DNA of 41,302 nt from Flavobacteriales bacterium (lineage in GTDB: Bacteria; Bacteroidota; Bacteroidia; Flavobacteriales_F; PHOS-HE28), in NCBI GenBank assembly GCA_017987115.1, contig JAGNUG010000023.1, positions 1-41,302 on the forward strand, given 5' to 3'. Below are positions 8,192-39,665 of the stretch, piece after piece. A program made the position numbers and the translations under genes. Numbering within the stretch: the first letter of the stretch is position 1; the number at the start of each line of letters is the position of its first letter. The notes beneath the pieces were generated by a model. That model did no database searches. It had not been told where the DNA came from and saw only the letters and a program-made list of their open reading frames with translations.

Positions 8192-8202
8192 AACCTAACC
8201 AC

Positions 8203-8658: not shown

Positions 8659-8682
8659 TAACCAGACCCTAACAACACTAAC

Positions 8683-10047: not shown

Positions 10048-10436
10048 GAAGTTCTGCTTTGTCGAATAGTCCTTTTCCTCATTGCCAGGTGGCCCGTAAT
10101 GTGATTCTGCCTTCCAATGAATTGTCCCGCGACGGCTGTGATGCAGGATAATATTGTTGTTGACTGGTCGTAATTGCGCTTCCATTTATTATTGTGAAGC
10201 AGGGACGATACTCGGACCCGGCTAAGCATTGAATAGCTGCCCGAGCACCCTGTAATGTGGAAAGATCAGCTTGTCTTGTATCGTGAATTGGCTTAAGACC
10301 GTCTGACGGTCATGTAATTTACTTAACGACCCAACAACGCATTTAATGTGGCTAAAATTGCCGTTTGTGGATTGAACGTAAAGCAGATTTGCTAGTGCAG
10401 TTACATTGACCCAAGAATCAAATAACGGACACGACG
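10048..10436. other. 389-bp intergenic region between tssC and vgrG
   Basis: No credible coding sequence was seen on either strand; short leftward frames here lack start context and coding character. It contains the 15-bp palindrome at 10297-10311. It probably carries the promoter for the vgrG-tssEFGNK block, but I cannot point to a clear TAnnTTTG box. Confidence 0.5.
10297..10311. promoter_or_regulatory. Perfect 15-bp palindrome upstream of vgrG (operator candidate)
   Basis: GACCGTC-T-GACGGTC, two 7-bp arms around one central base, 126 bp before the vgrG start and the most symmetrical element I saw in the gap. Size and symmetry fit a dimeric regulator site. The arms are too short and the loop too small for a terminator. 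Confidence 0.35.
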
Positions 10437-12263: not shown

Positions 12264-12709
12264 TGGAAGTGGTCACTGGCTATAGGATCCCGTTGGATTT
12301 TGACAACTTCTTTGGCACCCGAACATTTGTGCAATGCAGCGTAATTGAAAGCATTTCCTTCTACGTGCATGTATTGCTGCTTACGACACACGGTGAATTT
12401 GAATTCGATCAAGACTTCGGTTGCGAGGTATGGGAAACAGAGTTTGAGCACCAACAAACCACAAGACTTTGGGTGGAACAATTGGGGCGTAACATCCAGG
12501 AAGTACTTGAGAAGTATGAAACAAGGCTCACTAACATTCATGTTCAGGCTAAAGTGAGCCAAATGGAATTTGAAAACAAAGAAGAGTTCAAAGTAAGTAA
12601 ACGGCTTAAGAAGAAACTTAACTTAGTGGTTAATGCAAAGCTGAGAGCCACCAATGAGAAATTTGAATTGACGGAGAATATCCTGCTAAGTCCATTCGCC
12701 ACTGACTGA
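12260..12709 (+). CDS. tssE: T6SS baseplate protein TssE (gp25-like)
   Basis: A 149-aa homologue of phage T4 gp25, which starts sheath polymerisation at the baseplate. The motif region FEFDQDFGCEVWETEFEHQQ, followed by a helix and a beta-rich end, is characteristic of gp25/TssE. The length is normal for the family. The ATGA overlap with vgrG and a gap of only 4 bp before tssF show tight coupling. An antisense open frame over the vgrG/tssE junction is only a shadow. Confidence 0.88.
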   Translation: MMEVVTGYRIPLDFDNFFGTRTFVQCSVIESISFYVHVLLLTTHGEFEFDQDFGCEVWETEFEHQQTTRLWVEQLGRNIQEVLEKYETRLTNIHVQAKVSQMEFENKEEFKVSKRLKKKLNLVVNAKLRATNEKFELTENILLSPFATD

Positions 12710-12713
12710 TCAA

Positions 12714-14516: not shown

Positions 14517-15469
14517 TGGCGAAGAAGAACGTATGGAAGCAATGGCATGAGCAATTACGCTCACGAGCTGAAGACTTACGTGCGGAGGTCGTTATCGCGG
14601 ATCTGGTGTTGGACGGTTCAATTGATCTGGACGATGTATTCATGCTTCCAAATGGGGGGTTCCACCGGATCATTTCGAAAGACATTGCAGCTCTGCATGA
14701 TCCTGGTACGACTGAGCACAAGACTGAACGCGCTGTGGTGGAGGTGAATCGCAAAGGATTGTACGACGGCTTACCAGAGGTGCTTTTCCATCAGAATCGC
14801 AAACGCAAATCCTTTCGTTCCATTGTGGAGATCAAGGACGAGGTGAAGTACCAAGATGATGTTGAACGCAAGGCCCGTAAATTCTTCGCGCCACTTGATC
14901 ATGAATTGCTGCGCACAAGAAGCCTTATTGAGCTGAATGAGCGCAGCATGACCACCGAGTTGCTCACACTTGACAATGATCGTGGTCTTCGTAAATTTTG
15001 GAGCATACCTGAATACTTCAGTAAAAAGCAACAAGGAACCCTAGTCTTGCTCTTGCCATTGGTGCATCGGTTGGTTAAAGATCTGGACCTTGCTGCGCAG
15101 GCCATGCAAATAGTGCTCGACGTTCCAGTGGAAGTGACTTTATCAACCCCGGAACCGTTAATGACCGATGCTTTGACTCAGGTGGCATTGGGAAGTGGTC
15201 AATTGGGTGTGGACATGATAACGGGCGGCGCTTACCAGGATGAAGATGAAGTCGCTTTGGTGCGAATAGGTCCAGCCAGTAAGGCAAAGGCTGCAAGCTT
15301 CGCCTTTATGCAACGTGGTTATCAGCAATTCATTTATCTCAGTGAATTGTTGTTGCCTGCTGATATGGAAGTGCAGTTACAGGTGGAATTGAAACCTGAG
15401 GACCATGACCTGGTTTTACAAGAGGATCCAGAATATATTAGATTAGGCGTTACAACTTACTTGACCTGA
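14516..15469 (+). CDS. tssG: T6SS baseplate protein TssG
   Basis: A 317-aa protein, the usual partner of TssF in the wedge. The call rests mainly on length, gene order and general features: a charged N-terminal helix, a segment with NRKGLYDGLPEVLFHQ, a long LLPLVHRLVKDLDLAAQAMQIVLDVPVEVTL region, and beta-strands at the C-terminus. This form is well diverged from proteobacterial TssG, as expected for T6SSiii. It has no signal peptide. It starts at the last base of the tssF stop. Confidence 0.82.
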   Translation: MAKKNVWKQWHEQLRSRAEDLRAEVVIADLVLDGSIDLDDVFMLPNGGFHRIISKDIAALHDPGTTEHKTERAVVEVNRKGLYDGLPEVLFHQNRKRKSFRSIVEIKDEVKYQDDVERKARKFFAPLDHELLRTRSLIELNERSMTTELLTLDNDRGLRKFWSIPEYFSKKQQGTLVLLLPLVHRLVKDLDLAAQAMQIVLDVPVEVTLSTPEPLMTDALTQVALGSGQLGVDMITGGAYQDEDEVALVRIGPASKAKAASFAFMQRGYQQFIYLSELLLPADMEVQLQVELKPEDHDLVLQEDPEYIRLGVTTYLT

Positions 15470-15476
15470 GCATAAC

Positions 15477-16463
15477 ATGGATCCACTAGGTGGTATTAGA
15501 AGTACGGCAGCGCAAGGCCAAGCCATGAAAAAAGGGCTTGGTTCCAAAGTGAAACAGGCCAAAGGGACACAGGCCAAAATGGCCAAATTCAACAGTGGCA
15601 TCGTAAAGCATTTGTTAGTGTTCTTGCTATTGGGTTTGTTATTAGGCCTCACCGTATTCCTGCCGTATTATCAATTCGATGCTTTTTTTGCCACTCCGGT
15701 TGCGGATGGTACTGTGCCAAAGCTCAACATGGTTCGGGTTGCGTTTACGTCACTATCCATCATTTTCCTGTTCATCGGAATATTGCATTTAAGCAGGGCG
15801 GAGAAGAAGGTGGATTGGTTCGATCGCTTCCGCTTGGGTCCTGAGCTTGGGTTCACTATTGGCTTGGCTTTTATTGCGGCCCTCGGATTGTTTCTTATGC
15901 ACCGCTTTGGTCATTTATTGTTGTTTTTTCTGCCCACACCTCCCGATGCCTACTTCGCACCCATGGCCAGTACCTTCGCGTTACTTTATGCCAGCACGGC
16001 CATCTGGTTGGTCGTGCCATTTCTGGTGAGGCACCTGTACCAACGCGCCATGTTGGTGGAAGACAAACAGTATCCGCTTTGGTATTTCCCAAAGAACCAT
16101 AAAGAGAAAGAGCCGGTTTGGGCAGAGCCGTTCGTACATCTGCACATGCGCTTCGTACCGGACCGAAGACAAGGCAGTAGCAAATTAATAGAAACCAAAT
16201 TACCGTTGCAGTGGAATTTTGGACAAGGGGTGTATCTATTTATTGAGGATTATAATGAACATCGTAGTCCCGATGCTCCGATCAAAGAATTGAGACACGA
16301 TGATAATTCACTGGGATGGCTTTTCAGCGTGCCTAGAAAAATTGGCGGCATTAAGATCGGTCAGCGCTATCTGGACCCAGAACTGAGCGTGCAAGAGAAT
16401 CGGATCGAGGAGAATACCGAGGTTCATTTCAGCCGTATATACAGAATTCCTGCTAAGTCATGA
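15477..16463 (+). CDS. tssN: T6SS inner-membrane protein TssN
   Basis: A 328-aa integral membrane protein found only in Bacteroidota T6SS, where it helps replace the TssJLM envelope complex. A basic cytoplasmic N-terminus (Lys-rich, 17-38) is followed by hydrophobic segments at about 44-65, 85-105, 123-142 and 162-186. A soluble C-terminal domain of about 140 residues follows (YPLWYFPKNHKEKEPVW, HMRFVPDRRQGSSKLIETKLP, SLGWLFSVPRKIGG). This fits the TssN arrangement of several membrane helices plus a cytoplasmic domain. It lies between tssG and tssK, 7 bp after tssG, and overlaps tssK by 4 bp. Confidence 0.85.
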   Translation: MDPLGGIRSTAAQGQAMKKGLGSKVKQAKGTQAKMAKFNSGIVKHLLVFLLLGLLLGLTVFLPYYQFDAFFATPVADGTVPKLNMVRVAFTSLSIIFLFIGILHLSRAEKKVDWFDRFRLGPELGFTIGLAFIAALGLFLMHRFGHLLLFFLPTPPDAYFAPMASTFALLYASTAIWLVVPFLVRHLYQRAMLVEDKQYPLWYFPKNHKEKEPVWAEPFVHLHMRFVPDRRQGSSKLIETKLPLQWNFGQGVYLFIEDYNEHRSPDAPIKELRHDDNSLGWLFSVPRKIGGIKIGQRYLDPELSVQENRIEENTEVHFSRIYRIPAKS

Positions 16464-17623
16464 ACGATTCCATAAAGAACGGCTACATCAATTGGATCGA
16501 TGGAATGAAGATCAGCAAAGATCATTTCATTGATATGCAACGTGCGACCGAAGACCGTTTACGCGATGTACGGAGTGTACTTGGCAGCGAATTTGATATG
16601 GGCCTGCTTGCAGGCAAGTTGAAAGGCAGGGGGTCATTGGAATATATTTTGACCATTGGTCATCCGAACCGAATTGATATGGAGGTGTATCAATGTCGTG
16701 CGTTAAGTCCTGCAGGTGATCGGGTGGAGATCGTGAGCGACCTGAATAGCCTTACGAATGCATTGAAAGCCACCTTTACCATAGATCTGGAGAAGGCCGA
16801 GGATCGAGATACATACGATGTGATCATTAAGGTTGATTCCTTCAACATGACGCCTTACGGTGAACCGGATGTAAAGGAATCGCCGCCCAGACACCCATTC
16901 GCACAACCTGGTTACACGTTGGAATTGGCACCTAGCAAAGAGATCCAATACAACGAGTACAACCGCAATTACGTGGTGTTGACCAGGGTGCAATTGATCG
17001 GAAGCGAGATCAAGCATTTGAAAGAATACATACCGCCGTGCATGAGCATGGAAAGCGCTGCGGAACTGACCGAATTCTACTTCAGGTATCTTCAATTTGT
17101 TAAGGACTTGGAGCAGAACGCTTTCCGCATAATTATAAAAACCAACAGCGCAGAGCACAAAACCCCGTTGGTCAATAATGTCGAACTGATAGCACGTCGC
17201 GTGTTTGATCTGATCGAGAAGGAAATTGATGATGTGGTACTGTTCTACCGCTTCGAGAACCCTGTACACTTTGTGGCCCACACCATGCGTTTGGCCCGGT
17301 GCATAAGGAACTCCATTGAGCTGACCACCAATGCAGGAAAGGATGAATTGCTGAATTATTTCAGTACCGAAGTAATGGATCTAAGTTCGGCGGAATACAT
17401 GAACGTGCTGTCGGGTCTATTCGGTATGGAATACCAACATTACGATATCAATGCGTGTTTGACGCGCATCAGTTCATTCTGTAAACATACCGCGAAATTG
17501 TTCGATGAACTGAGCCGCTTGGATTACATCGGTAAGAAGAAGGACATCGGTATTTTCGTGACCGACAAAACCAAAGAGGATACCTTATCGGTTGCCCAGA
17601 AACGTAGAAAGTGGGATTTTTGA
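16460..17623 (+). CDS. tssK: T6SS baseplate-membrane adaptor TssK
   Basis: A 387-aa protein that joins the baseplate to the envelope complex. The N-terminal INWIDGMKISKDHFIDMQRATEDRLRD is the Bacteroidota version of the conserved TssK start (W-x-x-G-x-x-I/L-x-x-x-H-F). A beta-sandwich region follows, then a helical middle and the C-terminal domain that in other systems contacts the membrane partner, here probably TssN. Its 4-bp overlap with tssN fits that partnership. It is probably the last structural gene of the vgrG-led block; the next gene starts 12 bp later. Confidence 0.88.
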   Translation: MNDSIKNGYINWIDGMKISKDHFIDMQRATEDRLRDVRSVLGSEFDMGLLAGKLKGRGSLEYILTIGHPNRIDMEVYQCRALSPAGDRVEIVSDLNSLTNALKATFTIDLEKAEDRDTYDVIIKVDSFNMTPYGEPDVKESPPRHPFAQPGYTLELAPSKEIQYNEYNRNYVVLTRVQLIGSEIKHLKEYIPPCMSMESAAELTEFYFRYLQFVKDLEQNAFRIIIKTNSAEHKTPLVNNVELIARRVFDLIEKEIDDVVLFYRFENPVHFVAHTMRLARCIRNSIELTTNAGKDELLNYFSTEVMDLSSAEYMNVLSGLFGMEYQHYDINACLTRISSFCKHTAKLFDELSRLDYIGKKKDIGIFVTDKTKEDTLSVAQKRRKWDF

Positions 17624-17635
17624 AACCGACACGAA

Positions 17636-18994
17636 ATGTTATCGTCGGCATACATTAGCACTCGGTCCATCGTCATTTTGGCGGTGCTAATGATGGATGT
17701 TCCATCTTATGCGCAGCTGGAAAATGCATTCTGGCAGGACCAGGATAATATTAATGCAGCTTTTGTTGTGAATCCTGCGTTTCTGACTTCTGGCAACGCG
17801 GTGATCGCTCTTCCATTTCTTACTGTGTCCCAAGTGGGCAACAACCAAATTGATAATGGTCCATTCAAATTGGTGGAAAGTGAGCTGGATCGTTCGTTCA
17901 AGGGCGAAAAAGGTGTAGACCTTCAGAACACGTTCGGCTCAGCTCATGAGGAGGGTAATTTATTGTCACGGCAAGCGAACCTTTTGGGCGGAGCCATTTC
18001 CTCTAGGGTGCGTTCTAAAAAGCACCCAGAGCGACGCATAACGGTGCGGTTGGCGTATTTGAGTAACAATACGCTCGATATTGTGTATAGCGGGCGTTTT
18101 GCTGCCATGGCACTCTCGCCGCTGTTCTCTATGGAAGTGCCCTACACAAGTAACGTTACGAATAACTTCGAGCTTCGTTATATGGATTACCGTGCAATTG
18201 CACTAGGCGGTACTATCGAGGTGAGACCTTTGCAGACCTACGTTGGTGTTAACTTGAAATTGCTTGGAGGATCATCTTTTATTGTAGCAGATATTAATAA
18301 TGGGATCACAACCGTACTAAGCAAAGGAACTGACCTAGTGTTTTCAGAGAGAGCCCCAAATTCCAATTTTTTGAACGGTAAAGGAGTGGCGATTGATGTT
18401 GGTGCAGTGCATCGTATTTCTCGCGTTTGGAGCTTAATGGCGTCTTTGGTGGATCTAGGTTTCATTTCTTGGCCTGATGCAGAGCGTTTTGAAGTGCGGA
18501 ACAACCAAGAAATACTGCTCGGATTGGAGCCGCTTAACGAACTCACTGGTCAACTTTTTCTTGTGAGTGCATATGCCCCGCTTCTGAATGACCTGCGAAG
18601 TGATGGCAGTAGCAATGAAAAAGTACGGACTTCACTCCAGGGAAGGACCAATTTAGGGGTGGAAGGGCTGATAGGCCGATGGGGCGTGCATGTACTTGTA
18701 CAAAAAGCCATACGTAATTGGTCCAGTTCCGCAGATGCTACTGTGATTGCTTCAAAAGCCTCCTACTGGTTATTGGATCGTAAATCAGGTCGGTTGGGCT
18801 TTTCGGTGGGTGTCCGCTATGGCAGCGATACGGAATTCTCAATTACATCATCGCTTCGTGCTGACCTTAAGGTAGTCGATTTTTATTTCGGCCTGAACGG
18901 TTTGAGTGATGGATCACAACCTTATGGTAGAAGCATGCTCATGTTGGGCATACAAATAAATACAGCGGGCATAACTGATCGCGATCGGCTATGA
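17636..18994 (+). CDS. Outer-membrane beta-barrel protein (PorP/SprF- or DUF5723-like)
   Basis: A 452-aa exported protein. A signal peptide ends near SYAQ (residue 26). The rest is made of alternating strands and tight turns typical of a Bacteroidota outer-membrane barrel, with NPAF near the start as in the PorP/SprF and DUF5723 families (QDNINAAFVVNPAFL) and paired strands such as RLGFSVGVRYGSDTEF, ADLKVVDFYFGLNGLS and SMLMLGIQINTAG at the end. PorP/SprF-type proteins usually anchor surface or gliding proteins beside T9SS. Its place between tssK and hcp1 suggests an outer-membrane role in this T6SS, but that is inference. It starts 12 bp after tssK. Confidence 0.7.
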   Translation: MLSSAYISTRSIVILAVLMMDVPSYAQLENAFWQDQDNINAAFVVNPAFLTSGNAVIALPFLTVSQVGNNQIDNGPFKLVESELDRSFKGEKGVDLQNTFGSAHEEGNLLSRQANLLGGAISSRVRSKKHPERRITVRLAYLSNNTLDIVYSGRFAAMALSPLFSMEVPYTSNVTNNFELRYMDYRAIALGGTIEVRPLQTYVGVNLKLLGGSSFIVADINNGITTVLSKGTDLVFSERAPNSNFLNGKGVAIDVGAVHRISRVWSLMASLVDLGFISWPDAERFEVRNNQEILLGLEPLNELTGQLFLVSAYAPLLNDLRSDGSSNEKVRTSLQGRTNLGVEGLIGRWGVHVLVQKAIRNWSSSADATVIASKASYWLLDRKSGRLGFSVGVRYGSDTEFSITSSLRADLKVVDFYFGLNGLSDGSQPYGRSMLMLGIQINTAGITDRDRL

Positions 18995-19035
18995 ACAATT
19001 TTACGCAGAGCAAAATAACTTAACCTCCCACAACC

Positions 19036-19452
19036 ATGTCTTTCAGAGCAGACCTTACTATTGATGACCGCACCTACCGCGTGCTTTCTTGTACACATAC
19101 CCTGCTTACGCCAGTGGATCCAGCTTCGGGATTGCCAACCGGTCGAACCAGGGGTGGAATCGTAACCATTGAGATCGAAAGCACTGATGATATATTTTTA
19201 TGGGTGAAGATCGCAAATGTAGTGGAGGGTGCGAAGACAGTATTCAGCGGTGCAGTGGTCTTTAGGAAAGTCGAAGAGGATGTGCGTATGAGAACACTGA
19301 AGTTCAATGATGCTATGGTGGTGGAGCATACCGAAACCTATAATGCTGCAGACAAAACGCCAATGACCATCAAGTTCTCATTAACGGCTCGCGAACTGAT
19401 CATGGAGGGTACTAGCGAGATGGGAGCTTGGCCGCGTGAGTGGCCGAAGTGA
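19036..19452 (+). CDS. hcp: Hcp tube protein (TssD), divergent copy
   Basis: A 138-aa Hcp-like protein: FRADLTIDDRTYRVLSC at the start, GGIVTIEIESTDDIFLW in the middle and a terminal EW-P. It shares the fold pattern of the other two Hcps (FRADL, IEIEST-D, DAM/AYVV) but is clearly diverged and has longer loops, for example PASGLPTGRTRG and VVEGAKTVFSGA. Possible roles are a tube-end or baseplate-adjacent Hcp, or a cargo-specific Hcp. It lacks the TATGTTTG box of the other two copies and lies 41 bp after the barrel gene, so it may be read from upstream. Confidence 0.88.
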   Translation: MSFRADLTIDDRTYRVLSCTHTLLTPVDPASGLPTGRTRGGIVTIEIESTDDIFLWVKIANVVEGAKTVFSGAVVFRKVEEDVRMRTLKFNDAMVVEHTETYNAADKTPMTIKFSLTARELIMEGTSEMGAWPREWPK

Positions 19453-23561: not shown

Positions 23562-24116
23562 ATGGAACCGTTGAATAAGAAAGAGCGACAAATGAATATT
23601 ATGAGCTTCGTGCTCATCTTATTACTCACGGTGCTGCCCATCTGTGCTGGTGTATATCTCTTCGCTCGGACGGATGCACACGAAAATGAATTGTTGCGCA
23701 CCAAGGTGGGGGCCATGAAAGTCTATGAAGAAGAGGAAGATGACATTGATCGCATGGAAGCAGATATAATTAGCACAGTAACAGCATTGGACGAAAACAT
23801 CAACAAAGTAACTATCGCGAAGGACATGACAGGTGAATTGGGCGATCAAATCGCTGGCTACCCAACAAGTTTGAAAGAGAAATTGGTAGAATTGAACGGA
23901 AAGGTGATCGGACAGGAGAAGAAGAAGGATATCGGGATTATGTTGGAGATGTGTAAAGCGTTGAAATCGTACAACGATAACATCTATACGATCTTATACG
24001 ATGAAAAGGAAGACATGAGGAAGAATTCGGAGCGTATCCAACTTGATCTCGACCGGATCAAAAACGTCGCAAGACAGCATGGTGCTGCAGAGAGTGAACT
24101 GATAACAGCCCAATGA
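23562..24116 (+). CDS. tssO: T6SS envelope protein TssO
   Basis: A 184-aa membrane protein with a short basic N-terminus and one transmembrane helix (about 14-35: FVLILLLTVLPICAGVYLF). A long acidic helical region follows (YEEEEDDIDRMEADI) with coiled-coil character to the end. This topology, and the 4-bp overlap with a TssP-like gene, match TssO of Bacteroidota T6SS, part of the complex that replaces TssJLM. It begins 254 bp after the M23 gene, so a new promoter may lie in that gap, but I see no perfect TAnnTTTG box there. Confidence 0.78.
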   Translation: MEPLNKKERQMNIMSFVLILLLTVLPICAGVYLFARTDAHENELLRTKVGAMKVYEEEEDDIDRMEADIISTVTALDENINKVTIAKDMTGELGDQIAGYPTSLKEKLVELNGKVIGQEKKKDIGIMLEMCKALKSYNDNIYTILYDEKEDMRKNSERIQLDLDRIKNVARQHGAAESELITAQ

Positions 24117-25300
24117 AGAGGCCGGTCATTTTCAGCTTACTTGTCGTTTTCATCCTTGGTGTCATGTTCATGCTAATGGCATCAACGCATTACGAAACAC
24201 TGCCTATCGTGGTCCGCAATGTTCAGGATACGCTGGTGGTGGATTCTGTGTTCTGTATAGGGGAAAAATTCCGGGTTTCGCCTCCTCAAGATGTTACGTC
24301 CAAGAATGACGAGATAAAGTGGCGACTGGATAGTTCGCAGTATGACGTTGAAGCGGTTCGCGAATTCTCACACCTTGCCGAGGGTGTGCATAGGCTGGAT
24401 ATGTTGATCAACGGAAGATACAGGGGCACAAGGAATATTACTGTGCGGCAATGCAACGCGGTTATACAAATTCCTAATAGTATGGTAGTAAATGTAGAAG
24501 CCACCTTCAGCGATAAGACCACCAATGCCCGCTCGCGCCATTGGTATATTAATGGTGATGATATTACTGTGGATAGCATCGCCACCGATCTAACATATAA
24601 GTTCAGCACCGCCGATGTCTACAATATGGAAGTGCAGGTGATAACCAATGACGGGGATACCTTACCTATATATAGTAGTGAAATAGTGGTATACCCACCA
24701 CAAAAGAAGGTTGAAAGAAAAGTGCCCTTAGTAGTAACACCTACTGAAAAGCTGCCCAAGGTGGAAAAAGAGAAGGTAGTTGCACCACCTGCCGAAATTC
24801 CTGGACCGGTGACAAGCAATGGATTCCTGAATAAGGCCAGCTATGAATTCAGTAAAGTGCATGTGGTAAGCTATGTAGATGATGCAGAGGAAAGTTGTTT
24901 TGACTACAATGGCGAGCGCAGTACGTTGAACTTGAAGGACCTGAAAAAAGATGTTTGCCTAAGCAAGATCTGGGTAGTGCCGGATCCTGATCTGAAAGGC
25001 AATAAATTACTTGTCCGTATAAAGAATGCCAAAAGCGATTTCGAATGGGCGCAGAACGTGTTCCCCGTACAAGGTGGATTTTCTGATGGTCCTAGATACA
25101 TAAGCATAACCACATTGGGTTGCGCGCTATTAAAAGGAGAATCATACATAATAACTGTTCAATCCGCAGATGAAGAAAGCCGCTTTGCCGACATGAGCTA
25201 TGCTAACGATTGCCTAGGTCTTATTGACATAGGTGACCTGATGGGTGGCTTGGATTTTGTCGAGAAGACCAAGATCGTGAAACTTGAATTCAGGTATTGA
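24113..25300 (+). CDS. tssP: T6SS envelope protein TssP
   Basis: A 395-aa protein with one N-terminal transmembrane segment (about 6-24) and a periplasmic body. The body includes two PKD/Ig-like beta-sandwich stretches (about 45-200, including RHWYINGDD), a Lys/Pro/Val linker (about 200-235) and a C-terminal beta domain (VHVVSYVDDAEESCFDYNGE ... VVPDPDLKGNKLLVRI). The arrangement and its place directly after tssO fit TssP; the exact family is assigned by context more than by a signature motif. It overlaps tssO by 4 bp. Its stop lies 7 bp before the ATG I prefer for the next gene. Confidence 0.68.
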   Translation: MKRPVIFSLLVVFILGVMFMLMASTHYETLPIVVRNVQDTLVVDSVFCIGEKFRVSPPQDVTSKNDEIKWRLDSSQYDVEAVREFSHLAEGVHRLDMLINGRYRGTRNITVRQCNAVIQIPNSMVVNVEATFSDKTTNARSRHWYINGDDITVDSIATDLTYKFSTADVYNMEVQVITNDGDTLPIYSSEIVVYPPQKKVERKVPLVVTPTEKLPKVEKEKVVAPPAEIPGPVTSNGFLNKASYEFSKVHVVSYVDDAEESCFDYNGERSTLNLKDLKKDVCLSKIWVVPDPDLKGNKLLVRIKNAKSDFEWAQNVFPVQGGFSDGPRYISITTLGCALLKGESYIITVQSADEESRFADMSYANDCLGLIDIGDLMGGLDFVEKTKIVKLEFRY

Positions 25301-25307
25301 CGGCGTG

Positions 25308-27431
25308 ATGAAGAACATAGGTTGTCACATACTGAATTGTTGGATGATGCCCTTGTTTTTACTGCTTAGCATACAAGCATTCACGCAACCGGTATTTACG
25401 CTCAAATTGTGTTCCCCTGTAGATTCTGCTGAGTTCGATCTCAACGACATTGGATTAGGTAATCGCTTTCTTTGCGCGGATACAAGTAACGATAATGTGC
25501 ATTTCGCGACGGATACAACAGGTTCCTTGGTAGGCATAACCGATGTAGAAGCAAGCAATTACTGGAGTGTGCGTGATACCATCTTCGTTTTTACCAGCAC
25601 TGATCAAGCTTGTATCAACCCCGCCCCCATTTGGTTGTCTTTGGAATTGATCGTGGATCCATTACCAATAGTGACCATTGTTGATAATACGCTATGTTCC
25701 GGAGACTCCCTGACCATGTTCTTCGGCCCGGATTCCGGATCCACTTGGGAAATGTTTTGGAGTCAGGCATCGCCCATTACCAATGCCATTGCCGGTGATA
25801 CGGTGGTCGCATTGGTGGGTAACATAGGCGCCACAACAGCTTATTCGCTGGATAGTGTGATGAACACAGGTACCGGTTGTGTGAGTGCTGTTCCCGAAAT
25901 GATAACTGTCCATTCCATTCCATCGGTGACCCTGCTCACTGACACGATCATGTGTCCCGGGGATAGTTTGCAGTTGCTATTCACACCCTCAGATGAAGGA
26001 CCTTGGTCTTTGTTTTGGTCAGATGGTGCAACCACACAATGGCCGCAGGCCGTTATTGGAGATACTGTGAGCAGCTTTGCAACAACAGCAGGAGTAGATA
26101 CATTGCTTTCCATTTCAAGTGGCGCGCAATGTGCGTTCAATGATACGATCATGTTGCACGTGCTGGCTGGTCCTTCTGCGACACTAACTGCCGGCGCGTG
26201 CGTGGGCGATACGGTGGCCTTGAGCGATACCTTGAACTTGAGCACCATCGGTTTTGCCAATAGCGCTATTGTACCGGTGGACCTTGATATGTTTGTAATG
26301 CCCAATGATGTGATCAACCCACCGCTATTGGTTGTACTAGGGGCACCAAATGGGTGTATGGATACCTTAACTCTACAGGTTGATCCCGAACCATCGTTCG
26401 ATACAATAACCTCCATCGCTTGTGAAGGCGATGCCATAATTGTTTCCGGCATCGCGAATGCTACCACCCTCACCTACGAATGGGCCAATTCACAACAATC
26501 TCTTGAATTGAATGTAGTCAACGGTAGTGCCAGCATTCTCAGCTCCAACACATCAGAGGGTCCACTTCATCTGGTATTGCAAGGTGCCTGTTCGTTGGAT
26601 ACGCTATTGAGCAATATTCAGGTGTACCCATTGCCAAATGCGGTAATTATCAACAATAGCAATTCGCTGGATGGTCAAGTGGGATACTGTGTTGGCCAGC
26701 AATTGGACTTGTTGAGTACGAATGCGAATGCTATTTGGACCGCCCAGGACACCGCCTTTTTGGAGCCGGACATGGCCATTGGTGCTTCATACGACCCCAT
26801 GATCACGAACACTGGAAGCTATGAAATAGTGCTCACCGTTAGTCGGGATTCAGGCGGGGTAGTTTGCACAGCTGATACCAGCCTAACTGTGGACGCGTCA
26901 CGCTCGTTGTGCAAGATCAGTTCATTATACCAGTTTCCCGGCTACATATTCATCGCTGCGTTGGATACCACTTTCAATGGCGATTCACCATACTTCCAGT
27001 GGTTCAATGCCAATGACCCCTTGATCCTTGACACTCTTGCTAGTGTTGGCAATGCGGCCATAGCGATAATACCTGCATCTCTGGCAGATAGTGTGATCCG
27101 TGTATTCGGATCCTACTATGGCGAAGGACTCTGTGAGTGTAGTTCCGGAAGGTTGAACACCAAGGCGATAGTTGATCAAGTGAACGAATTGAAAGTTTAC
27201 CCGAATCCGATCGAAGGAGGCAATTTCAATATGATCATGCCCAGTTATTTTCAGGATCAGCGTGTACAAATGCAACTGATCGATCCGCTGGGAAAAAGCG
27301 TTCTGAAATTGGAACTGGAACCGGGAAGCATCTTCCGAACAATTGAAATACCGGTTGATCTGGATGGGGTCCATTTGATGGAATTACGCTCCTCCGCCCA
27401 GGTAGTTGGTCATAAAGTGATCGTGCGATGA
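25308..27431 (+). CDS. Ig/PKD-like repeat protein with T9SS type A sorting domain inside the T6SS operon
   Basis: A protein of about 707 aa. The signal peptide is MKNIGCHILNCWMMPLFLLL to about QAF; I prefer the ATG at 25308 over 25284, which overlaps tssP. The body is a string of short beta-sandwich repeats of the gliding-motility/PKD type, each with a Cys-x-G-D-S/T-like start (for example LCSGDSLTMFFGPDSG, MCPGDSLQLLFTPSDEG, ACEGDAIIVSGIA). It ends in a classic T9SS type A domain (LKVYPNPIEGGNFNM, VHLMELRS). It would be exported by T9SS, anchored or released at the surface, and it overlaps the next gene by 4 bp. A T9SS cargo in the middle of a T6SS operon is unusual; a role as an outer-surface scaffold around the T6SS exit is speculative. 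Confidence 0.85.
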   Translation: MKNIGCHILNCWMMPLFLLLSIQAFTQPVFTLKLCSPVDSAEFDLNDIGLGNRFLCADTSNDNVHFATDTTGSLVGITDVEASNYWSVRDTIFVFTSTDQACINPAPIWLSLELIVDPLPIVTIVDNTLCSGDSLTMFFGPDSGSTWEMFWSQASPITNAIAGDTVVALVGNIGATTAYSLDSVMNTGTGCVSAVPEMITVHSIPSVTLLTDTIMCPGDSLQLLFTPSDEGPWSLFWSDGATTQWPQAVIGDTVSSFATTAGVDTLLSISSGAQCAFNDTIMLHVLAGPSATLTAGACVGDTVALSDTLNLSTIGFANSAIVPVDLDMFVMPNDVINPPLLVVLGAPNGCMDTLTLQVDPEPSFDTITSIACEGDAIIVSGIANATTLTYEWANSQQSLELNVVNGSASILSSNTSEGPLHLVLQGACSLDTLLSNIQVYPLPNAVIINNSNSLDGQVGYCVGQQLDLLSTNANAIWTAQDTAFLEPDMAIGASYDPMITNTGSYEIVLTVSRDSGGVVCTADTSLTVDASRSLCKISSLYQFPGYIFIAALDTTFNGDSPYFQWFNANDPLILDTLASVGNAAIAIIPASLADSVIRVFGSYYGEGLCECSSGRLNTKAIVDQVNELKVYPNPIEGGNFNMIMPSYFQDQRVQMQLIDPLGKSVLKLELEPGSIFRTIEIPVDLDGVHLMELRSSAQVVGHKVIVR

Positions 27432-28891
27432 AAGGATGCCCATTATCCTTTCTTTTTTTAGCTGTGGTACTCGTGCCGTTAGGTGTGAATGCGCAGGATA
27501 AAGGATCAATGGAACTGAACCGCGCACAGGCGAAGATCAAAGCATTTGATCTGGCAACTCGGTTTGGTGATCTAAGCCAATTGAAGGATACACAAGGAAA
27601 CAACCTTGAAGGAGAATTTTTGGATCTATTTGGATTGAACGCACAACTGTTGTTGGATTTTTATGCAAACGAAGAGAGTGCAGCTGATCATGGTCGGAGC
27701 CTAGGTCCTAAGGCGTATTGCGCTGAGTACTATTCGAAAAAGATCGACGAACCTTTAGGGGTGGTCACAAAGGTCATGAAGCCACTTACGTCAGTTCTGC
27801 TTTCAGGGGCTGAAGATCATTTCATTGTTCGGCTCGTTGTCAAACGTACCTTCCCCAGGGTGCTCAGCAACGGAGTATTGATCGAGCCGGAAAAGCCGAA
27901 GGAGGTGTTCCAGTTCATTACCGTGCGAGTGAGCAAACAAGAGCAAGCATTCATCCAGATCATACAACCCTATTTTGAGCAAATAGAGAATAAATGGACG
28001 CTGGACTTCTACAGGTTCGGTGGTGGCGATGGTACTATCCGGAGCAACGGTGCGGCCATTTTGACCAAAGATCCGAACATGGCCATCGCTCTGTTGGGTT
28101 TTCGTGTCGGTTATCGCTTTTATCCATTCAAGGAGGCTTCACCACTTTTACGTGGTCGATTGGGTTTTCATGTAGGTGCGGGAGCCGAAACATGGAACTA
28201 TAAGCTTACCGGAATAGAGGCTATGGGGTCACAGCAAGTTGATTACTTGGGTGCTGGTGATAATGTGATCGATCTTATCGATCTGGATATGTTGAATGAT
28301 CTTGGCGGTGACGATTTCATACTTAACCAGCGAAGCAAGTTTGCGCCGGAAACCATTAAAAGAACATTGTTCACGATCCGTGGAGCAGGTAGCTATGATG
28401 TTTTCAAAAAGAGTAAATGGAGCACCAATCTGGAACTTGGGTTGGGCTATGTTTCCGGCGGCAAAGCCAATGTTCACCTAAGTGCTGTGGATGATCAGTT
28501 CGTAGTGTTCCAAGAAGGACCATTTGCGGGTAATGAGGTTACTATTGAACACAATTCCGTTGGTTACAACGGCGATATTGTCTTTAGGAACACACATGCA
28601 AATGCTTATGGTTTCGGGTCGTCCACTTCTGAATTGGACCAGCAAGTGGAGTTACGGTCCACGATCTATTGGGATGTGAAATTGACCCAGGTTTTTAACT
28701 ATAGGAAGATCGAATTTGGGGTTTTCCTATCTTTAAGGCACCATATCACCCCTAGTCTTGATAATACAGACCTATCCACAATACAACTGAACGAAATTCG
28801 CCAACAGGAGGTTTCTGCTAGTAGGGCATTCGTGGAAAAGGCAACGCCGCATTTCTTTGGCTTTGGACTAAGTATTCAAAAAATCAGATAA
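27428..28891 (+). CDS. Exported barrel-like protein of unknown family
   Basis: A 487-aa exported protein with a signal peptide ending near NAQ (residue 23). The first 180 residues form a mixed alpha/beta region with FLDLFGLNAQLLLDFYAN, which may be a separate periplasmic domain. From about residue 200 it alternates strands and turns in the manner of an outer-membrane barrel (MAIALLGFRVGYRFYPF, RGRLGFHVGAGAETWNY, YWDVKLTQVFNYRKIEFGVFLSLRHHITP) and ends in FGLSIQKIR. I do not recognise the family. By position between the T9SS protein and TssR it may be an outer-membrane partner of the system. It overlaps the preceding gene by 4 bp. Confidence 0.65.
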   Translation: MKGCPLSFLFLAVVLVPLGVNAQDKGSMELNRAQAKIKAFDLATRFGDLSQLKDTQGNNLEGEFLDLFGLNAQLLLDFYANEESAADHGRSLGPKAYCAEYYSKKIDEPLGVVTKVMKPLTSVLLSGAEDHFIVRLVVKRTFPRVLSNGVLIEPEKPKEVFQFITVRVSKQEQAFIQIIQPYFEQIENKWTLDFYRFGGGDGTIRSNGAAILTKDPNMAIALLGFRVGYRFYPFKEASPLLRGRLGFHVGAGAETWNYKLTGIEAMGSQQVDYLGAGDNVIDLIDLDMLNDLGGDDFILNQRSKFAPETIKRTLFTIRGAGSYDVFKKSKWSTNLELGLGYVSGGKANVHLSAVDDQFVVFQEGPFAGNEVTIEHNSVGYNGDIVFRNTHANAYGFGSSTSELDQQVELRSTIYWDVKLTQVFNYRKIEFGVFLSLRHHITPSLDNTDLSTIQLNEIRQQEVSASRAFVEKATPHFFGFGLSIQKIR

Positions 28892-28893
28892 GA

Positions 28894-31401
28894 ATGAACA
28901 TCGTACGGCATATGCGGCTTTGGCTTTTTTTGGCTTGCACGGCTAGTCCTTTTTTGGCTGGTGCACAGCTGGAGTTGCCCAGTGAATTGCTGCATCCACG
29001 GTATAGCATGGCCGAGAAAATGATCAAGCTGAATGACGGCGTCGATTATCGGACCGGAAAAGTTCCGAGCCGCAATACGAGCGATCAGGAATGGCGTGCA
29101 TTTACGGACAGAGCTGATGTGGGCGTTTATGACAATGATAAATGGAAAGAAAAGACGAATACGCTGCCGCGCATGGGAACCATGCTAACGATAAGAAAAG
29201 AAAGTGATGAGGGAGTTGAAGTCATGCAGGGAGGTGCCAAATTAGGTTGGGTGAAAAAAGCGGAACTGGTGCTTTGGCCACATCCATTGGTGAAGTATGG
29301 TTCTGAGGCGGTTGATCTAAAGGCGTTCATCGTGAATACGGTCGATAAGGCGTTTACTGACAAGATCAAAGAAGACCCAACGTTGAAGTCCTTCTATCAA
29401 ATTTATGATGCCCCAACATCCAATAAGGTCTTGGATACGAAACAGATCTACCAAATTCTTTTTGCGTACAAATACGACGATGCGCAAGGCCGTTACTTGC
29501 TCAGTAATAACTATAAGTTGGATGGAGATGGACAACTTCTAGGATGGGTGGATCAGAACCGTGTAAAGATCTGGGATACGGCTTTAGCACTGGAACCTAA
29601 TTGGGATAGCCCTGCTATGGAAGAGCGCAGGAAGAACGGTCAGTTCATAGCCCAGGTGTTCAAGGACCACAATGATGCAACGCGTTATTATGGTGGTGAC
29701 TATAAGGTGAAACCATTGAACCAGCTCGATCCGGTCATCTTGGAAAAAGACAGAACGAACGTGGATATTCTTCACGAAAGTGGTCGGTTCAGTGGTATTA
29801 TTCCACGTTTTCCTTTTTTATCCCAAGCTAGTAACGATGCTGTAATTGAGTGCGGTGCAATAGGTAAAATGAATGTTGCCAACACAGGAACGGTCAAGGG
29901 TACGAGCGATGTGGAATTTGGCCTGTTGCGAAAGAAACTGGAACGCGCACAGGAGAACCAAAGCAAGGTGAACATAGTATTTGTTGTGGATGCGACCAGT
30001 GGCATGCAAAAGCATTTCAGGTCCACCGTATTACCAGCTATGCAGGCTCTTATTCAGAATACGGCAAGTGAGAAACGTAGCAATTTGCGCTTTGGAATGG
30101 TGGCTTATTCCGATGGTGATTGTGGAAGCTCGGTAGATGATGTTCTGGTGAAACGGATCCAGCTAACGAATGATCTTGATAAGTTCAACAACGCGGTCAA
30201 TATTGCGCAAGTGAATACGGTCATTGATGGTGATGTCCTGGTTGCCTCTAAGCTTGGTCTGTTGTCAGCACTGAATGATCTAGGAATGAATGACGACGAG
30301 ACCAACATCATCTTCCATTTGGGTAGAACGATGGATGTGGGGAGTGATATGGTGCGTAGTTTCAGTTGTACCCGAACACCCTTTGTTGATGAAGGAGATC
30401 TGGTCAATGCGTTCTTCAATAAACGACCAGCCTTCGTTTCCTTTCAAACAGATTGGAAGAATGGCATTGGCTATAAAGGGTTTGAAGATGAGGTCCAGGT
30501 GTTAATGGAGAAGGTCGCAAGTAAGATCAATGACAGCGAGAAGGAACGGTTCATAACCTATGATGCCGGACAAGAGACCCAAACTGAGGCCGTTCGGAAT
30601 CAAGGATATACTGAGATCGTAAATGCGCCAGCTTTAATGCGGATCTATTATCCGGAAAGATCCCTGGCTGAAAGTGAATTGAGCCCTGAAGTTCTCGTTC
30701 GTTTGATCGGCGAAGCGTATGAAGCAGCCCAAAAGAAAGGCGAGGTGGAATTGAAGATCAGAGCTATGCTCTTCAACGATGACCAAACACTTGGTAAAGC
30801 CTTTACGGAATTCTCCTCGGAAGCAGCTATCGCGTTGAGTAAAGCTAACCTGAGCACCGAGGAAATGCGTTTATTGGCCAAGGAACGCGTACACACGTTC
30901 CAGCTGGCAAATACATTCTTGAAGAACAAAGATGCACAGAACCCTACCTATAGATTAGTGCTATTCATGAAACAAGGTAGCGTTGATGCATTGCGTGATC
31001 TTTTCGAGCGTGTTGAGAACGCTTCAGACAGCCAGGATGCTGCAGGGCAGCGCGATGTTCTTAAAGATGCATTGGAGAAATACGCAAAAAGCATTCTGAA
31101 TATTGAAGATATGGACCAGAAGGTGGACATAAGCAGATTGCGTAGCCAAATAACCGGAGTGGGGGACCATGTTGGTGGCAGCAATTCCCTATTAAGCCGC
31201 TTAAGCAAATTGGACGATATTGAAGACCTGAGTGATATGGAAGTTCAGAACTATTTCCGTGACATACAACGAAAGGGGCGCGAATTCAAAGACAAGGTCA
31301 TAGCTGTTAAGGGTGGTTATCCCTTTGTATATACCGCAGGTATAACAGATCGTGACAAGGAATTGAAGTTCTACTGGATCCCAATGGAATACCTGTTCTG
31401 A
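28894..31401 (+). CDS. tssR: T6SS periplasmic protein TssR with VWA domain
   Basis: An 835-aa exported protein. A signal peptide ends near GAQ. An SH3-like segment (about 85-130: RMGTMLTIRKESDEGVEV, GWVKKAELVLW) is followed by a second similar strand set (LLGWVDQNRVKIW), then a VWA domain from about residue 360 (VNIVFVVDATSGM). A long helical region (about 590-790) comes next. The MIDAS motif reads D366-A-T-S-G-M, so the position usually held by the last Ser (DxSxS) is Gly. Size, VWA and neighbours match TssR, a Bacteroidota-specific component. It is followed by an ABC transporter pair and a TssQ-like lipoprotein. Confidence 0.85.
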   Translation: MNIVRHMRLWLFLACTASPFLAGAQLELPSELLHPRYSMAEKMIKLNDGVDYRTGKVPSRNTSDQEWRAFTDRADVGVYDNDKWKEKTNTLPRMGTMLTIRKESDEGVEVMQGGAKLGWVKKAELVLWPHPLVKYGSEAVDLKAFIVNTVDKAFTDKIKEDPTLKSFYQIYDAPTSNKVLDTKQIYQILFAYKYDDAQGRYLLSNNYKLDGDGQLLGWVDQNRVKIWDTALALEPNWDSPAMEERRKNGQFIAQVFKDHNDATRYYGGDYKVKPLNQLDPVILEKDRTNVDILHESGRFSGIIPRFPFLSQASNDAVIECGAIGKMNVANTGTVKGTSDVEFGLLRKKLERAQENQSKVNIVFVVDATSGMQKHFRSTVLPAMQALIQNTASEKRSNLRFGMVAYSDGDCGSSVDDVLVKRIQLTNDLDKFNNAVNIAQVNTVIDGDVLVASKLGLLSALNDLGMNDDETNIIFHLGRTMDVGSDMVRSFSCTRTPFVDEGDLVNAFFNKRPAFVSFQTDWKNGIGYKGFEDEVQVLMEKVASKINDSEKERFITYDAGQETQTEAVRNQGYTEIVNAPALMRIYYPERSLAESELSPEVLVRLIGEAYEAAQKKGEVELKIRAMLFNDDQTLGKAFTEFSSEAAIALSKANLSTEEMRLLAKERVHTFQLANTFLKNKDAQNPTYRLVLFMKQGSVDALRDLFERVENASDSQDAAGQRDVLKDALEKYAKSILNIEDMDQKVDISRLRSQITGVGDHVGGSNSLLSRLSKLDDIEDLSDMEVQNYFRDIQRKGREFKDKVIAVKGGYPFVYTAGITDRDKELKFYWIPMEYLF

Positions 31402-31420: not shown

Positions 31421-32158
31421 ATGGCCACTGCTCCTGTTTTCTCAATTCGCGATCTTGATCTAGGCTATGATCCGGGTAATACGGTGTTGCACATACCGCA
31501 GCTAACAGTTATACCGGGTGAGCTTACGTTCGTTCTGGGCCCCAGTGGTGCAGGCAAAAGTACGCTGCTGGAGAGTTTGGGTTTAATGAAGAATACGTTC
31601 CAGCCCGGCCCGAACTCTTTACTTGACCTCAGAACCGTACAAGGCAACACTACAAGTTTATTGGGCATTTGGGAAGATGGTGGCGACCGCGCAAATGCTA
31701 TGCGGAAAAAGCATTTCTCGTTCATTTTTCAAAGCACTAACCTAATGCCCAACTTCAGCTTGGGCGAGAATATCTGCTTTACGGGTATGCTGGAAGGAGC
31801 GGACCTTAGCGCCATGAAACCAAAGGCCTTGCAGTTAATGGATCAGCTCAACTTGGATCCTGCATTGTTCGACCAACCTGCTACAATGGCCAGTGGTGGC
31901 CAAAGACAACGTGCGGCATTCGTGCGCGCTTTGTGCAAAGGGTTCGACGTGCTATTTTGCGATGAACCTACTGGGAACTTGGATCACGAGAATGCATTGT
32001 CATTGTTCCAATTGCTGCGCAAGCATATAAAGGATAACCAATTGGCAGCAGTAATTGTCACGCATGATGTGGACCTTGCTGAACGATTTGCGGATCGCGT
32101 AGTGAATATAGAATTGCAGTCACGCAATAAGCAGACCTTAGGAGTGGTTCAACCATGA
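31421..32158 (+). CDS. ABC transporter ATP-binding protein (LolD/MacB-like)
   Basis: A 245-aa nucleotide-binding subunit. The Walker A motif is GPSGAGKST (40-48, K46). Next come a Q-loop (FQSTNLMPNFSL), a signature ASGGQRQR in place of LSGGQ, a Walker B VLFCDEPTGNLD and an H-loop VTHD. This pattern (the EPTGNLD end especially) is typical of the MacB/LolD/FtsE branch, which drives mechanotransmission rather than simple transport. It begins 19 bp after tssR and overlaps the permease gene by 4 bp. Confidence 0.93.
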   Translation: MATAPVFSIRDLDLGYDPGNTVLHIPQLTVIPGELTFVLGPSGAGKSTLLESLGLMKNTFQPGPNSLLDLRTVQGNTTSLLGIWEDGGDRANAMRKKHFSFIFQSTNLMPNFSLGENICFTGMLEGADLSAMKPKALQLMDQLNLDPALFDQPATMASGGQRQRAAFVRALCKGFDVLFCDEPTGNLDHENALSLFQLLRKHIKDNQLAAVIVTHDVDLAERFADRVVNIELQSRNKQTLGVVQP

Positions 32159-33801
32159 TCGAACTCCTGTACAGAGCCATAGCTGGAAATGGCACGGACC
32201 ACCGGTCGCTTTTCTTGCGCAATGAGTTGCGCACATTGCTTGGTCGGGCTAACAAGAATTTAAAGACCCTCGCGTACTTCACACTGCTGGCATTCATTGC
32301 TGTTGTGTTTGCTGAAGCAGGGTGGAAGTACTTGGGCAAACGCATGGACAACCCGTACGTGAAGTGGATCGATTTTCCTGTGAGTTCTGATGTGGACAAC
32401 CAATACGGGCCCATTATTCGCGATCTGGACAGCTTAAAGAGCGAACAGCAGTTCACGATGGACCGCCACAGCGGCTTCAACCGGTACATTCTGGGTTTCC
32501 GTAGAGCCGATGGTCGCCTTACCGATAAAGTGAAAGGCCGCACGTTCATACATCCGGAAGACAACACGTTATTGGCTGCCATACTCATCGAGCAGAATAG
32601 AGTGCGAATGAATGCTCCCGGGAGTGACCCTGGTGCATGGAGCGAAGCGCACAAGAAACGGGGTATCATCATCACTGAGGAATTAGTGCGGATGATGAAA
32701 TTCGATGCGGATCAAGACACGTTGTACGCGGAGTACGGCAAAGATCATTACTTGCAATTAAAGGTTATCGCAGTGGTGAAAAGCCTCCCGGATCGCGCTA
32801 TGTTCATGAGCAGCTATGAAATGTTCTGGGACCTTACGCGAAGCGCTGGCACCGAATTCGATTTTTACAATAAGTACCGCCGGACCGACCGATTGCCGTT
32901 CCTCGTCAGAATGGAAGATGCTCAATACGACACGAAAAAGGCCAAAATTCAATTGGACCAACTTGTGCGGGAACAAGGTTATGATCTGCAGGTAACGAAC
33001 ATAGCGATCGGGCAATTGCCCGTGTCACAAGGACCATTCAATGCAACCATGACCGTAATGTTGGAAGGAGAGCATGAAATGGGACGAACCCATGACTTGG
33101 TGGAACTGATCACCCGCGCCAGCAGTACCGAATACCTACGTCCGTTCCTGCAGGAAGAGTACAATTGGCATCGCACAGGCGAACTTAGTGGCTCCAAGGA
33201 TGTGTTGGTAAGACCGGGCACTGGCGACAACAAATACTCCTTCGTTACCATGCACTTCGATCAGATCGACAGCATCCGTCCATTCCGCAAATACATGTTG
33301 AACAAATTTGCGGTCGATATTGACCTGGAGCAGATCGAATCGCGGGAGAACTTTCATTTGGTCACAGTGATCACCAGTATTCTGGCCATTGCGCTCATAC
33401 TTTTCGCTCTGATCAGCATTTCCCTGTTCATAAGCAATGTGTTGCGGGCACATTTGGAAAAGATCAAAATGAATCTGGGCACCTTCATGGCATTCGGCCT
33501 TTCGCGCCAATTCCTGGTGGGTAGTTATTTACGTATGATCCTGGGAATGTTATTGGCCGTGTTCCTGTTTGCCCTGTTGGTGGTGGGCCTGTTGGATGTA
33601 CTGGACGTGCCATACCGTTTGCTCACACTGTTCGGCATGTCATTGAACCAGGACTTCACCGAGGCATTCAGCGTATTGAGCTTGAGTTTGTTCATGCTCA
33701 TCATACTTATCTTGCTGCTCACTTGGTGGAACACGCGCCGTTCTGTGAATGCGGTGTTGCGCCATGCTCCAAGCGACCTCATTTACAACCGGACGGAATG
33801 A
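32155..33801 (+). CDS. ABC transporter permease (FtsX/MacB-like)
   Basis: A 548-aa membrane subunit with one transmembrane helix near the start (about 38-56), a large extracytoplasmic domain of about 340 residues, and three C-terminal helices (about 402-428, 460-482, 507-528). The topology is that of type VII (MacB/LolC/FtsX) ABC proteins. It overlaps the ATPase gene and the lipoprotein gene by 4 bp each. The large domain could act on TssR, TssQ or the M23 peptidase, as FtsX-like proteins do with their own wall hydrolases. A comparison with TagS of the P. aeruginosa H1-T6SS is suggested by position. Confidence 0.85.
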   Translation: MIELLYRAIAGNGTDHRSLFLRNELRTLLGRANKNLKTLAYFTLLAFIAVVFAEAGWKYLGKRMDNPYVKWIDFPVSSDVDNQYGPIIRDLDSLKSEQQFTMDRHSGFNRYILGFRRADGRLTDKVKGRTFIHPEDNTLLAAILIEQNRVRMNAPGSDPGAWSEAHKKRGIIITEELVRMMKFDADQDTLYAEYGKDHYLQLKVIAVVKSLPDRAMFMSSYEMFWDLTRSAGTEFDFYNKYRRTDRLPFLVRMEDAQYDTKKAKIQLDQLVREQGYDLQVTNIAIGQLPVSQGPFNATMTVMLEGEHEMGRTHDLVELITRASSTEYLRPFLQEEYNWHRTGELSGSKDVLVRPGTGDNKYSFVTMHFDQIDSIRPFRKYMLNKFAVDIDLEQIESRENFHLVTVITSILAIALILFALISISLFISNVLRAHLEKIKMNLGTFMAFGLSRQFLVGSYLRMILGMLLAVFLFALLVVGLLDVLDVPYRLLTLFGMSLNQDFTEAFSVLSLSLFMLIILILLLTWWNTRRSVNAVLRHAPSDLIYNRTE

Positions 33802-34268
33802 AGAACTTGCACATTTTCCCTGTTCTATTGGTCGCATTGTTGTTAGGTGCCTGTGGTGTTGACGAACACGAAGAAAAAGTGCAGAAAGCCGTAGAAGCGT
33901 TGGATCAGAAACCACAGATACAGGAGCAACAAGAGGCCAAGCAGCAGGACCTTGAGGTATTGGACGAGGACGAAGCCAAGGCTCTTCAAGAAGAGATCAA
34001 GAAGCAGGAAGATAAACGCGTAGATCGCATTTCGGCCTCGCCTTTAGCAGGTTTTGCTACCGAGCCTGAGAAGCTGGCTGCGTATTTGCAAGAAAAGGTG
34101 AATGATGCGGCCAGTTGCCAAGGCATTGCGGAGTTGAACGAGTTTTTTATTACGTGTAGCGATGATCAGGTATTCAAAGAAATTTACAATGACCCGGATC
34201 ACCGCGACGGTATTTTAGAAGTATTCGGAAACTATAAGAAACTAGTGAGCAAGTGTGCGGGCAAGTAA
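33798..34268 (+). CDS. tssQ: TssQ-like lipoprotein
   Basis: A 156-aa lipoprotein: hydrophobic signal with lipobox LLLGAC (C19), then a Gln/Glu/Lys-rich helical stretch (about 25-75), then a small compact domain with three further cysteines. The start at 33798 overlaps the permease stop in ATGA; an upstream ATG at 33723 would put 25 residues before the signal and is rejected. In Bacteroidota T6SS, TssQ is the outer-membrane lipoprotein. Size, type and location fit, but the sequence is too short and variable for me to be certain. Confidence 0.62.
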   Translation: MKNLHIFPVLLVALLLGACGVDEHEEKVQKAVEALDQKPQIQEQQEAKQQDLEVLDEDEAKALQEEIKKQEDKRVDRISASPLAGFATEPEKLAAYLQEKVNDAASCQGIAELNEFFITCSDDQVFKEIYNDPDHRDGILEVFGNYKKLVSKCAGK

Positions 34269-39664: not shown

Positions 39665-39665
39665 A

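Follow-up and report, generated by a model that had tools for sequence, protein, structure and literature searches.

A putative T9SS-exported surface protein encoded within a T6SSiii operon is very probably a dedicated component of a conserved gene block in Bacteroidota

Among the known systems closest to the locus studied here is the T6SSiii of B. fragilis, which has TssN, TssQ, TssO, TssP and TssR and in which TssR is a lipoprotein (PMC10781749). The paper on this membrane complex is silent on an ABC transporter, a kinase or T9SS, and published models fail to detect TssQ in 23% of systems (PMC10781749). In P. aeruginosa, the H1-T6SS is activated by a threonine-phosphorylation pathway that acts via TagQ (an outer-membrane lipoprotein), TagR (periplasmic), TagS/TagT (an ABC transporter) and PpkA/PppA/Fha (PMC6657622, PMC11881912). 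Searches of open-licence papers revealed no description of a T9SS protein, an outer-membrane barrel or an ABC transporter in T6SSiii loci.

The window, the whole stretch of 41,302 nucleotides that was analysed, comes from a Flavobacteriales bacterium (contig JAGNUG010000023.1). The following features were assigned.

5720..19452, + strand: T6SSiii core (tssH, tssB, tssC, vgrG, tssE, tssF, tssG, tssN, tssK, DUF5723 barrel, first hcp)
19916-20305 and 21537-21926: further hcp genes
23562..24116, + strand: TssO (PF17561, E 1.1e-6, at the cut-off)
24113..25300, + strand: TssP-like protein with an N-terminal TM, a PKD-like region and a C-terminal domain (profile comparison; without Pfam match)
25308..27431, + strand: putative T9SS-exported surface protein of the cassette (ORF, sub-threshold TIGR04183/PF18962, same-position orthologues)
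25308..25385, + strand: signal peptide (read by eye from the sequence)
26916..27161, + strand: pre-CTD domain, aa 537-618 (profile searches; cassette proteins only in the genomes scanned)
27195..27428, + strand: putative T9SS type A sorting domain, aa 630-707 (TIGR04183/PF18962; family profile against 8glk_D)
27428..28891, + strand: predicted outer-membrane protein, here called BB (AlphaFold2 model, VIA-align, profile-profile matches)
28894..31401, + strand: TssR, a VWA protein with a signal peptide and without a lipobox (PF20782, 35 bits, cut-off 25.7)
31421..32158, + strand: ABC ATPase of the LolD/MacB/FtsE type (PF00005; solved relatives)
32155..33801, + strand: ABC permease (position and conservation with the ATPase elsewhere)
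33798..34268, + strand: small lipoprotein, lipobox LLGAC (position after the permease kept in most cassette loci)

Based on sequence comparisons, the host locus is a T6SSiii. TssN (PF17555, E 5e-21), TssO (PF17561) and TssR (PF20782) reach their Pfam cut-offs, with TssO standing at the cut-off; DUF5723 was also matched, and TssB, C, H, E, F, G, K, Hcp and VgrG resemble their counterparts in other T6SSiii loci. PF05947 (TssF) was dropped as a T6SS marker as it misses the TssF of the window itself, and profiles of TssB and TssC were used. The TssP-like protein matched classic TssP by profile over aa 2-192 (probability 96.4), while a single-sequence TssP search across the genus matched the window alone, TssP being too divergent. 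Like the T6SSiii of B. fragilis, the window encodes TssN, TssO, a TssP-like protein and TssR together with a full sheath/baseplate set. The window departs from it in that its operon also encodes a T9SS-tailed protein and an outer-membrane barrel, together with an ABC transporter and a lipoprotein; its TssR has no lipobox, and TssQ was not identified, a single TssO-type gene and no TssQ-like second one being seen in the operon.

The genes of the operon (23562 to 34268) follow one another closely, either overlapping by 4 nt or standing no more than 19 nt apart. The overlaps lie between TssO and TssP, the T9SS gene and BB, the ABC ATPase and the permease, and the permease and the lipoprotein; the gaps are of 7 nt (TssP to the T9SS gene), 2 nt (BB to TssR) and 19 nt (TssR to the ABC ATPase). 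An earlier, sequence-only reading had noted that the stop codon of the T9SS gene overlaps the next gene in the TssP-TssR stretch, and this is borne out by an ATGA at 27428-27431. The next gene is that for BB, so that tssR follows at one remove and is not the direct neighbour. A terminator-like hairpin with seven T lies at the junction of the T9SS gene and BB (27430-27452) and could attenuate the downstream genes; in promoter and terminator scans the site counts were not above chance, and the Bacteroidetes promoter pattern had zero matches.

The ORF at 25308-27431 is intact, begins with ATG and encodes 707 amino acids. Its product had been described as an Ig/PKD-repeat protein with a signal peptide and a type A sorting domain. 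The N-terminus, MKNIGCHILNCWMMPLFLLLSIQAFTQ, does read by eye as a signal peptide. The sorting domain is a match to the whole of both models over the C-terminal 78 residues, but with scores below the curated cut-offs (TIGR04183: E 4.6e-4, 20.1 bits, cut-off 23; PF18962: E 0.0025, 18.5 bits, cut-off 27). The family profile of this domain matches the solved CTD of Endonuclease I (chain 8glk_D, E 5e-6), and the sorting domain of the Cryomorpha ignava orthologue scores above the cut-off. The repeats are clear in the C. ignava orthologue, which has three Ig_7 domains (E 1e-18), but amount to hints of Ig_7 and PKD_4 in the window protein (E 0.07-0.08). No effector domain was found in the 707-aa protein in scans with Pfam/TIGR04183-type profiles, and a predicted structure of it was discarded (pLDDT 33). 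Most likely the protein leaves by T9SS, a secretion system other than the T6SS, as had been proposed. It resembles T9SS type A cargo in its apparent signal peptide and its sub-threshold sorting domain, and differs from the usual cargo in its T6SS operon, its cassette-specific pre-CTD domain and its dedicated outer-membrane-barrel partner.

A TssR search over Bacteroidia was combined with a TssR-profile scan of GTDB genomes, the latter yielding 68 loci, and the loci fall into two architectures. The first, found in Pedobacter, Chitinophaga, Deminuibacter, Segetibacter and Taibaiella, is an uninterrupted run of two TssO-type genes, TssP and TssR, mostly with TssH-B-C after it; these loci have no T9SS gene, barrel or ABC transporter. 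The second, here called the cassette, occurs in Flavobacteriales, Saprospiraceae, uncultured Bacteroidetes and some Bacteroidales. Its order is a T9SS-tailed protein (462-2494 aa), a barrel (approximately 420-730 aa) and TssR, usually followed by an ABC ATPase, a permease and a lipoprotein of 110-190 aa; in one branch TssP and a gene of approximately 200 aa stand between the barrel and TssR. Two TssR-type genes per locus were seen in L073, L092, L098, L099 and L103.

Of the 31 cassette loci with enough sequence, 26 have a T9SS-tailed gene no more than five genes upstream of TssR, as against none of the 27 loci of the Pedobacter/Chitinophaga type (TssQOPR-TssHBC). The difference has a p value of 8e-12, uncorrected for kinship, and of 7e-4 when the Pedobacter/Chitinophaga type is collapsed to five genera, which is the only kinship correction applied to these hand-assembled locus lists. 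On the TssR tree, six changes are needed for the T9SS gene, three for BB and one for the ABC transporter; independent-pairs tests on this tree had too few pairs and did not reach significance. The gene is absent from five cassette-type loci and occurs as tandem copies in Portibacter. The lack of such a gene in every other T6SSiii locus had been named as a refutation of the earlier reading. This fails, as T6SSiii loci of C. ignava and several MAGs carry one, and the tie to TssP and TssR is conserved and specific.

The T9SS proteins of the cassette share a domain of approximately 80 aa, which is followed by about 90-104 aa up to the C-terminus. A profile of this pre-CTD domain gave 13 matches in 25 whole genomes, all of them cassette proteins: one each in the window genome, G015, G020 and C. 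ignava, and two to three in Portibacter. The T9SS gene of the operon was the only match in the window genome, which has at least 150 T9SS sorting domains. There were no matches in ten genomes of the same genus without the cassette, in G033 or in the Pedobacter-type controls. G362 and G404 (third-branch cassettes) and G430 gave no score, so that the domain has diverged or is lacking in them. Of 395 Bacteroidia genomes, three gave strong matches, all with the cassette, and there were six weak matches (E 1e-4 to 1e-3). As cassette members were used to build the profile, their recovery is by construction; the absence of other copies is not. Given at least 150 such CTDs in the genome, one T9SS gene in an operon means little alone; recurrence across families together with a locus-specific pre-CTD domain excludes chance adjacency. 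Comparative evidence of this kind makes it very probable that a conserved block has the T9SS gene as a dedicated component.

The block-bearing genomes form three sets by TssC/TssB status. Those of the first have a T6SSiii with a TssC at least 60% identical to that of the window (the window genome, two relatives, C. ignava and others). Those of the second have a divergent TssC (27-35%), and in several of them H, B, C, Hcp, VgrG and E are linked to the block; loci L133-L139, from Saprospiraceae and other MAGs, have a TssC in this range and are perhaps a separate T6SS subgroup. The third comprises 20 distinct genomes with a TssR block and no TssC or TssB detectable by profile; all five positive controls scored in the TssB check, and G106/G455 and G306/G453, being the same assemblies, were each counted once. 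The T9SS protein is found in the block in 14 of the 20. Completeness is known to be 99-100% for five (G033, G106, G306 and two Portibacter isolates): G106 and both Portibacter have the protein, G033 lacks it, and in G306, where the contig ends, it is not visible. The complete Portibacter marinus and P. lacus carry the block without T6SS sheath genes. Block loci of this kind are L067, L068, L071-L074, L080, L081, L089, L093, L096, L097, L103 and L108.

G033, of the same genus as the window, encodes TssP-TssR-ABC-permease-lipoprotein (L039, C2:820-827 kb) and lacks the T9SS protein, BB, TssB and TssC; parts of the block can therefore separate, and the surface protein can be dispensed with. The C-terminal domain of the window TssP is shared with the upstream protein, often a lipoprotein, of T6SS-less loci (probability 97.3, with T6SS-less and divergent-T6SS loci mixed in the comparison set). 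A published survey detected no complete membrane complex in the absence of a T6SS, which agrees with the present blocks because only TssP/TssR-like genes were seen in those that are T6SS-free. An eCIS cluster (sheath, tube, VgrG-like, LysM, AAA) shares a contig with the Portibacter block (L150-L151, L154; G240:C65, G354:C11). A link between the two was not adopted, since the PF04984 sheath genes are approximately 35-65 kb away with unrelated genes between, and most T6SS-less genomes with the block have no eCIS.

Because the block exists without TssB and TssC, the T9SS protein is not simply a T6SS decoration, and the proposal that it decorates the T6SS exit site is not supported in that form. 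The distribution suggests that the protein belongs to a module of which T6SSiii is one user and not the sole owner. It is possible, although we would give it clearly less than an even chance, that the block, accompanied in many genomes by kinase, phosphatase and FHA genes, is a stand-alone envelope-spanning surface-sensing system from which T6SSiii recruited the TssP-TssR parts, or to which it was coupled. The T6SS-free copies of TssP-like and TssR genes bear on the origin of the T6SSiii membrane complex.

Genes for a Ser/Thr kinase, PP2C and/or FHA protein lie near 13 TssR loci, mostly in T6SS-less genomes. PP2C, FHA and Ser/Thr kinase genes are directly beside the block in L095:199-3521, L099, L100, L103:1049-3183, L082:4807-8236 and L131, and at L082:6257-8236 a fusion joins the kinase to a protein whose C-terminus is TssP-like. 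Upstream proteins at L072:423-2216 and L091:6193-7158 appear Hsp70/actin-like by eye and take the place of the kinase; the former has no Pfam match. The ABC ATPase has LolD, MacB and FtsE as its best solved relatives, and the permease, without a Pfam match, is conserved beside the ATPase in other loci and fused to it in some. Profile searches of the PDB with the permease, BB and TssR gave no match.

Sensing and signalling are suggested at least as strongly as decoration by the ABC transporter and by the neighbouring kinase, phosphatase and FHA genes. The TssP-like protein would be anchored in the inner membrane, TssR would be a periplasmic VWA protein, BB an outer-membrane barrel with a periplasmic NTF2-like domain, and the T9SS protein would lie outside; the ABC ATPase and permease at the inner membrane and the lipoprotein would complete an envelope-spanning block. 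Sec and then T9SS would bring the 707-aa protein to the surface, where its CTD would anchor it. From there, on contact or when the envelope is disturbed, it may signal by way of BB and TssR to the ABC transporter. The transporter would in turn license the T6SS membrane complex to assemble or take up its position, in the manner of TagQRST; in genomes that lack a T6SS, the sensor would pass its signal to the kinase/phosphatase/FHA set nearby.

The likeness to TagQRST lies in a T6SS-tied ABC ATPase, permease and lipoprotein, with kinase, PP2C and FHA in related loci. The window ATPase is judged by its LolD/MacB type and not by direct comparison with TagT, and the counterparts of TagS and TagQ (the permease and the lipoprotein) are matched by position alone. 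The cassette differs in having a surface-exported protein, an outer-membrane barrel and a VWA protein instead of TagR, and no TagR-type FGE domain was found among cassette proteins in a Pfam scan. The block resembles TagQRST in outline, and membership is not claimed. Counting against a sensor are this lack of an FGE domain, a permease without a solved relative and the window itself, where none of the proteins scanned is a kinase, PP2C or FHA protein and a LytTR response regulator is present. By analogy with TagQRST, a contact or damage sensor is plausible at slightly under even odds.

We put the probability of the whole reading, a dedicated surface subunit with a sensing role, at approximately 0.5. 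Its computed basis is recurrence, gene coupling, the pre-CTD domain, the predicted BB fold, the ABC type and presence with and without T6SS. Against it stand the five cassette-type loci and G033, which lack the T9SS gene, and the T6SSiii of B. fragilis, which works without such a surface protein (PMC10781749). Two secretion systems that have been studied apart would be linked, in that a T9SS-tailed protein with an outer-membrane partner of its own is a dedicated part of T6SSiii loci in Flavobacteriales, Saprospiraceae and other Bacteroidota. The pair offers a candidate for the means by which the T6SS of Bacteroidota sense or grip a target, and equally for the part of their membrane complex that lies in the outer membrane.

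Gripping without signalling is the best of the alternatives, although we consider it rather unlikely. An Ig-like surface protein would act as an adhesin or tether, holding a neighbour or surface near the exit of the T6SS or, in T6SS-less genomes, near another machine, with BB and TssR only as its anchor. A length that varies from 462 to 2494 aa with Ig-like content, as is typical of stalks, fits this, as do the tandem copies in Portibacter and the Ig_7 repeats in Cryomorpha; the conserved ABC transporter, lipoprotein and kinase/PP2C/FHA neighbours are left unexplained. Like the cassette, pairs of the SprB/SprF type, known from gliding adhesins, place a large surface protein beside an outer-membrane barrel. 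In the cassette, by contrast, the best CTD match is type A and not type B, and BB, which has no match to the PorP/SprF family, combines an NTF2-like domain with an 8-strand barrel.

That architecture is predicted from an AlphaFold2 model (pLDDT 76, alignment of 27 sequences), in which a signal peptide precedes the NTF2-like domain (aa 31-183) and an OmpA/OmpW-type barrel (aa 184-487). With VIA-align, the barrel matched OmpA (Z 16.1) and the N-terminal domain a ketosteroid-isomerase-like protein (Z 12.2). Profile-profile comparisons of disjoint sequence sets showed that BB is homologous over approximately 410-420 columns among Flavobacteriales, Saprospiraceae and the third branch (E 8e-19 and 1.5e-19), and the homology extends end to end between T6SS-positive and T6SS-less groups. 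BB is thus predicted to be an outer-membrane barrel protein with an NTF2-like domain.

Such a protein, encoded directly before tssR, could with the T9SS protein form an outer-membrane gate, that is, a part of the membrane complex that replaces the lipid anchor of TssR and perhaps TssQ. The TssR proteins of cassette loci have a signal peptide and no lipobox, as opposed to the lipoprotein of B. fragilis (PMC10781749), and no TssQ-like second gene was seen in the window operon. However, TssR of Pedobacter and Chitinophaga is also without a lipobox by the same check, yet these have no BB; L086 and L088 have both TssO-type genes alongside the T9SS protein and BB; and the block persists without TssB and TssC. 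A gate is an improbable role.

Genes for effectors and immunity are frequent in T6SS operons, but a T6SS effector, immunity or self-protection surface protein is very unlikely here, as the protein has no recognised effector domain and its gene also occurs without T6SS. Very common as T9SS genes are in this genome, an unrelated T9SS cargo that entered the operon by chance is the least credible explanation of all, being contradicted by the recurrence, the cassette-restricted pre-CTD domain and the coupled start and stop codons.

Two further regions of the window were noted. A LytTR response regulator (4606-5361) heads the T6SS operon and is a candidate T6SS regulator; one also adjoins TssH in C. 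ignava (L140) and lies near TssH in G020 (L149). At 37033-41095, a PAAR protein is followed by a protein with a zinc-protease-like motif (HEFLHGLGLRH), and the region also encodes a MORN-like small protein and a TIGR02594/CHAP peptidase, these genes forming a possible T6SS effector/immunity set.
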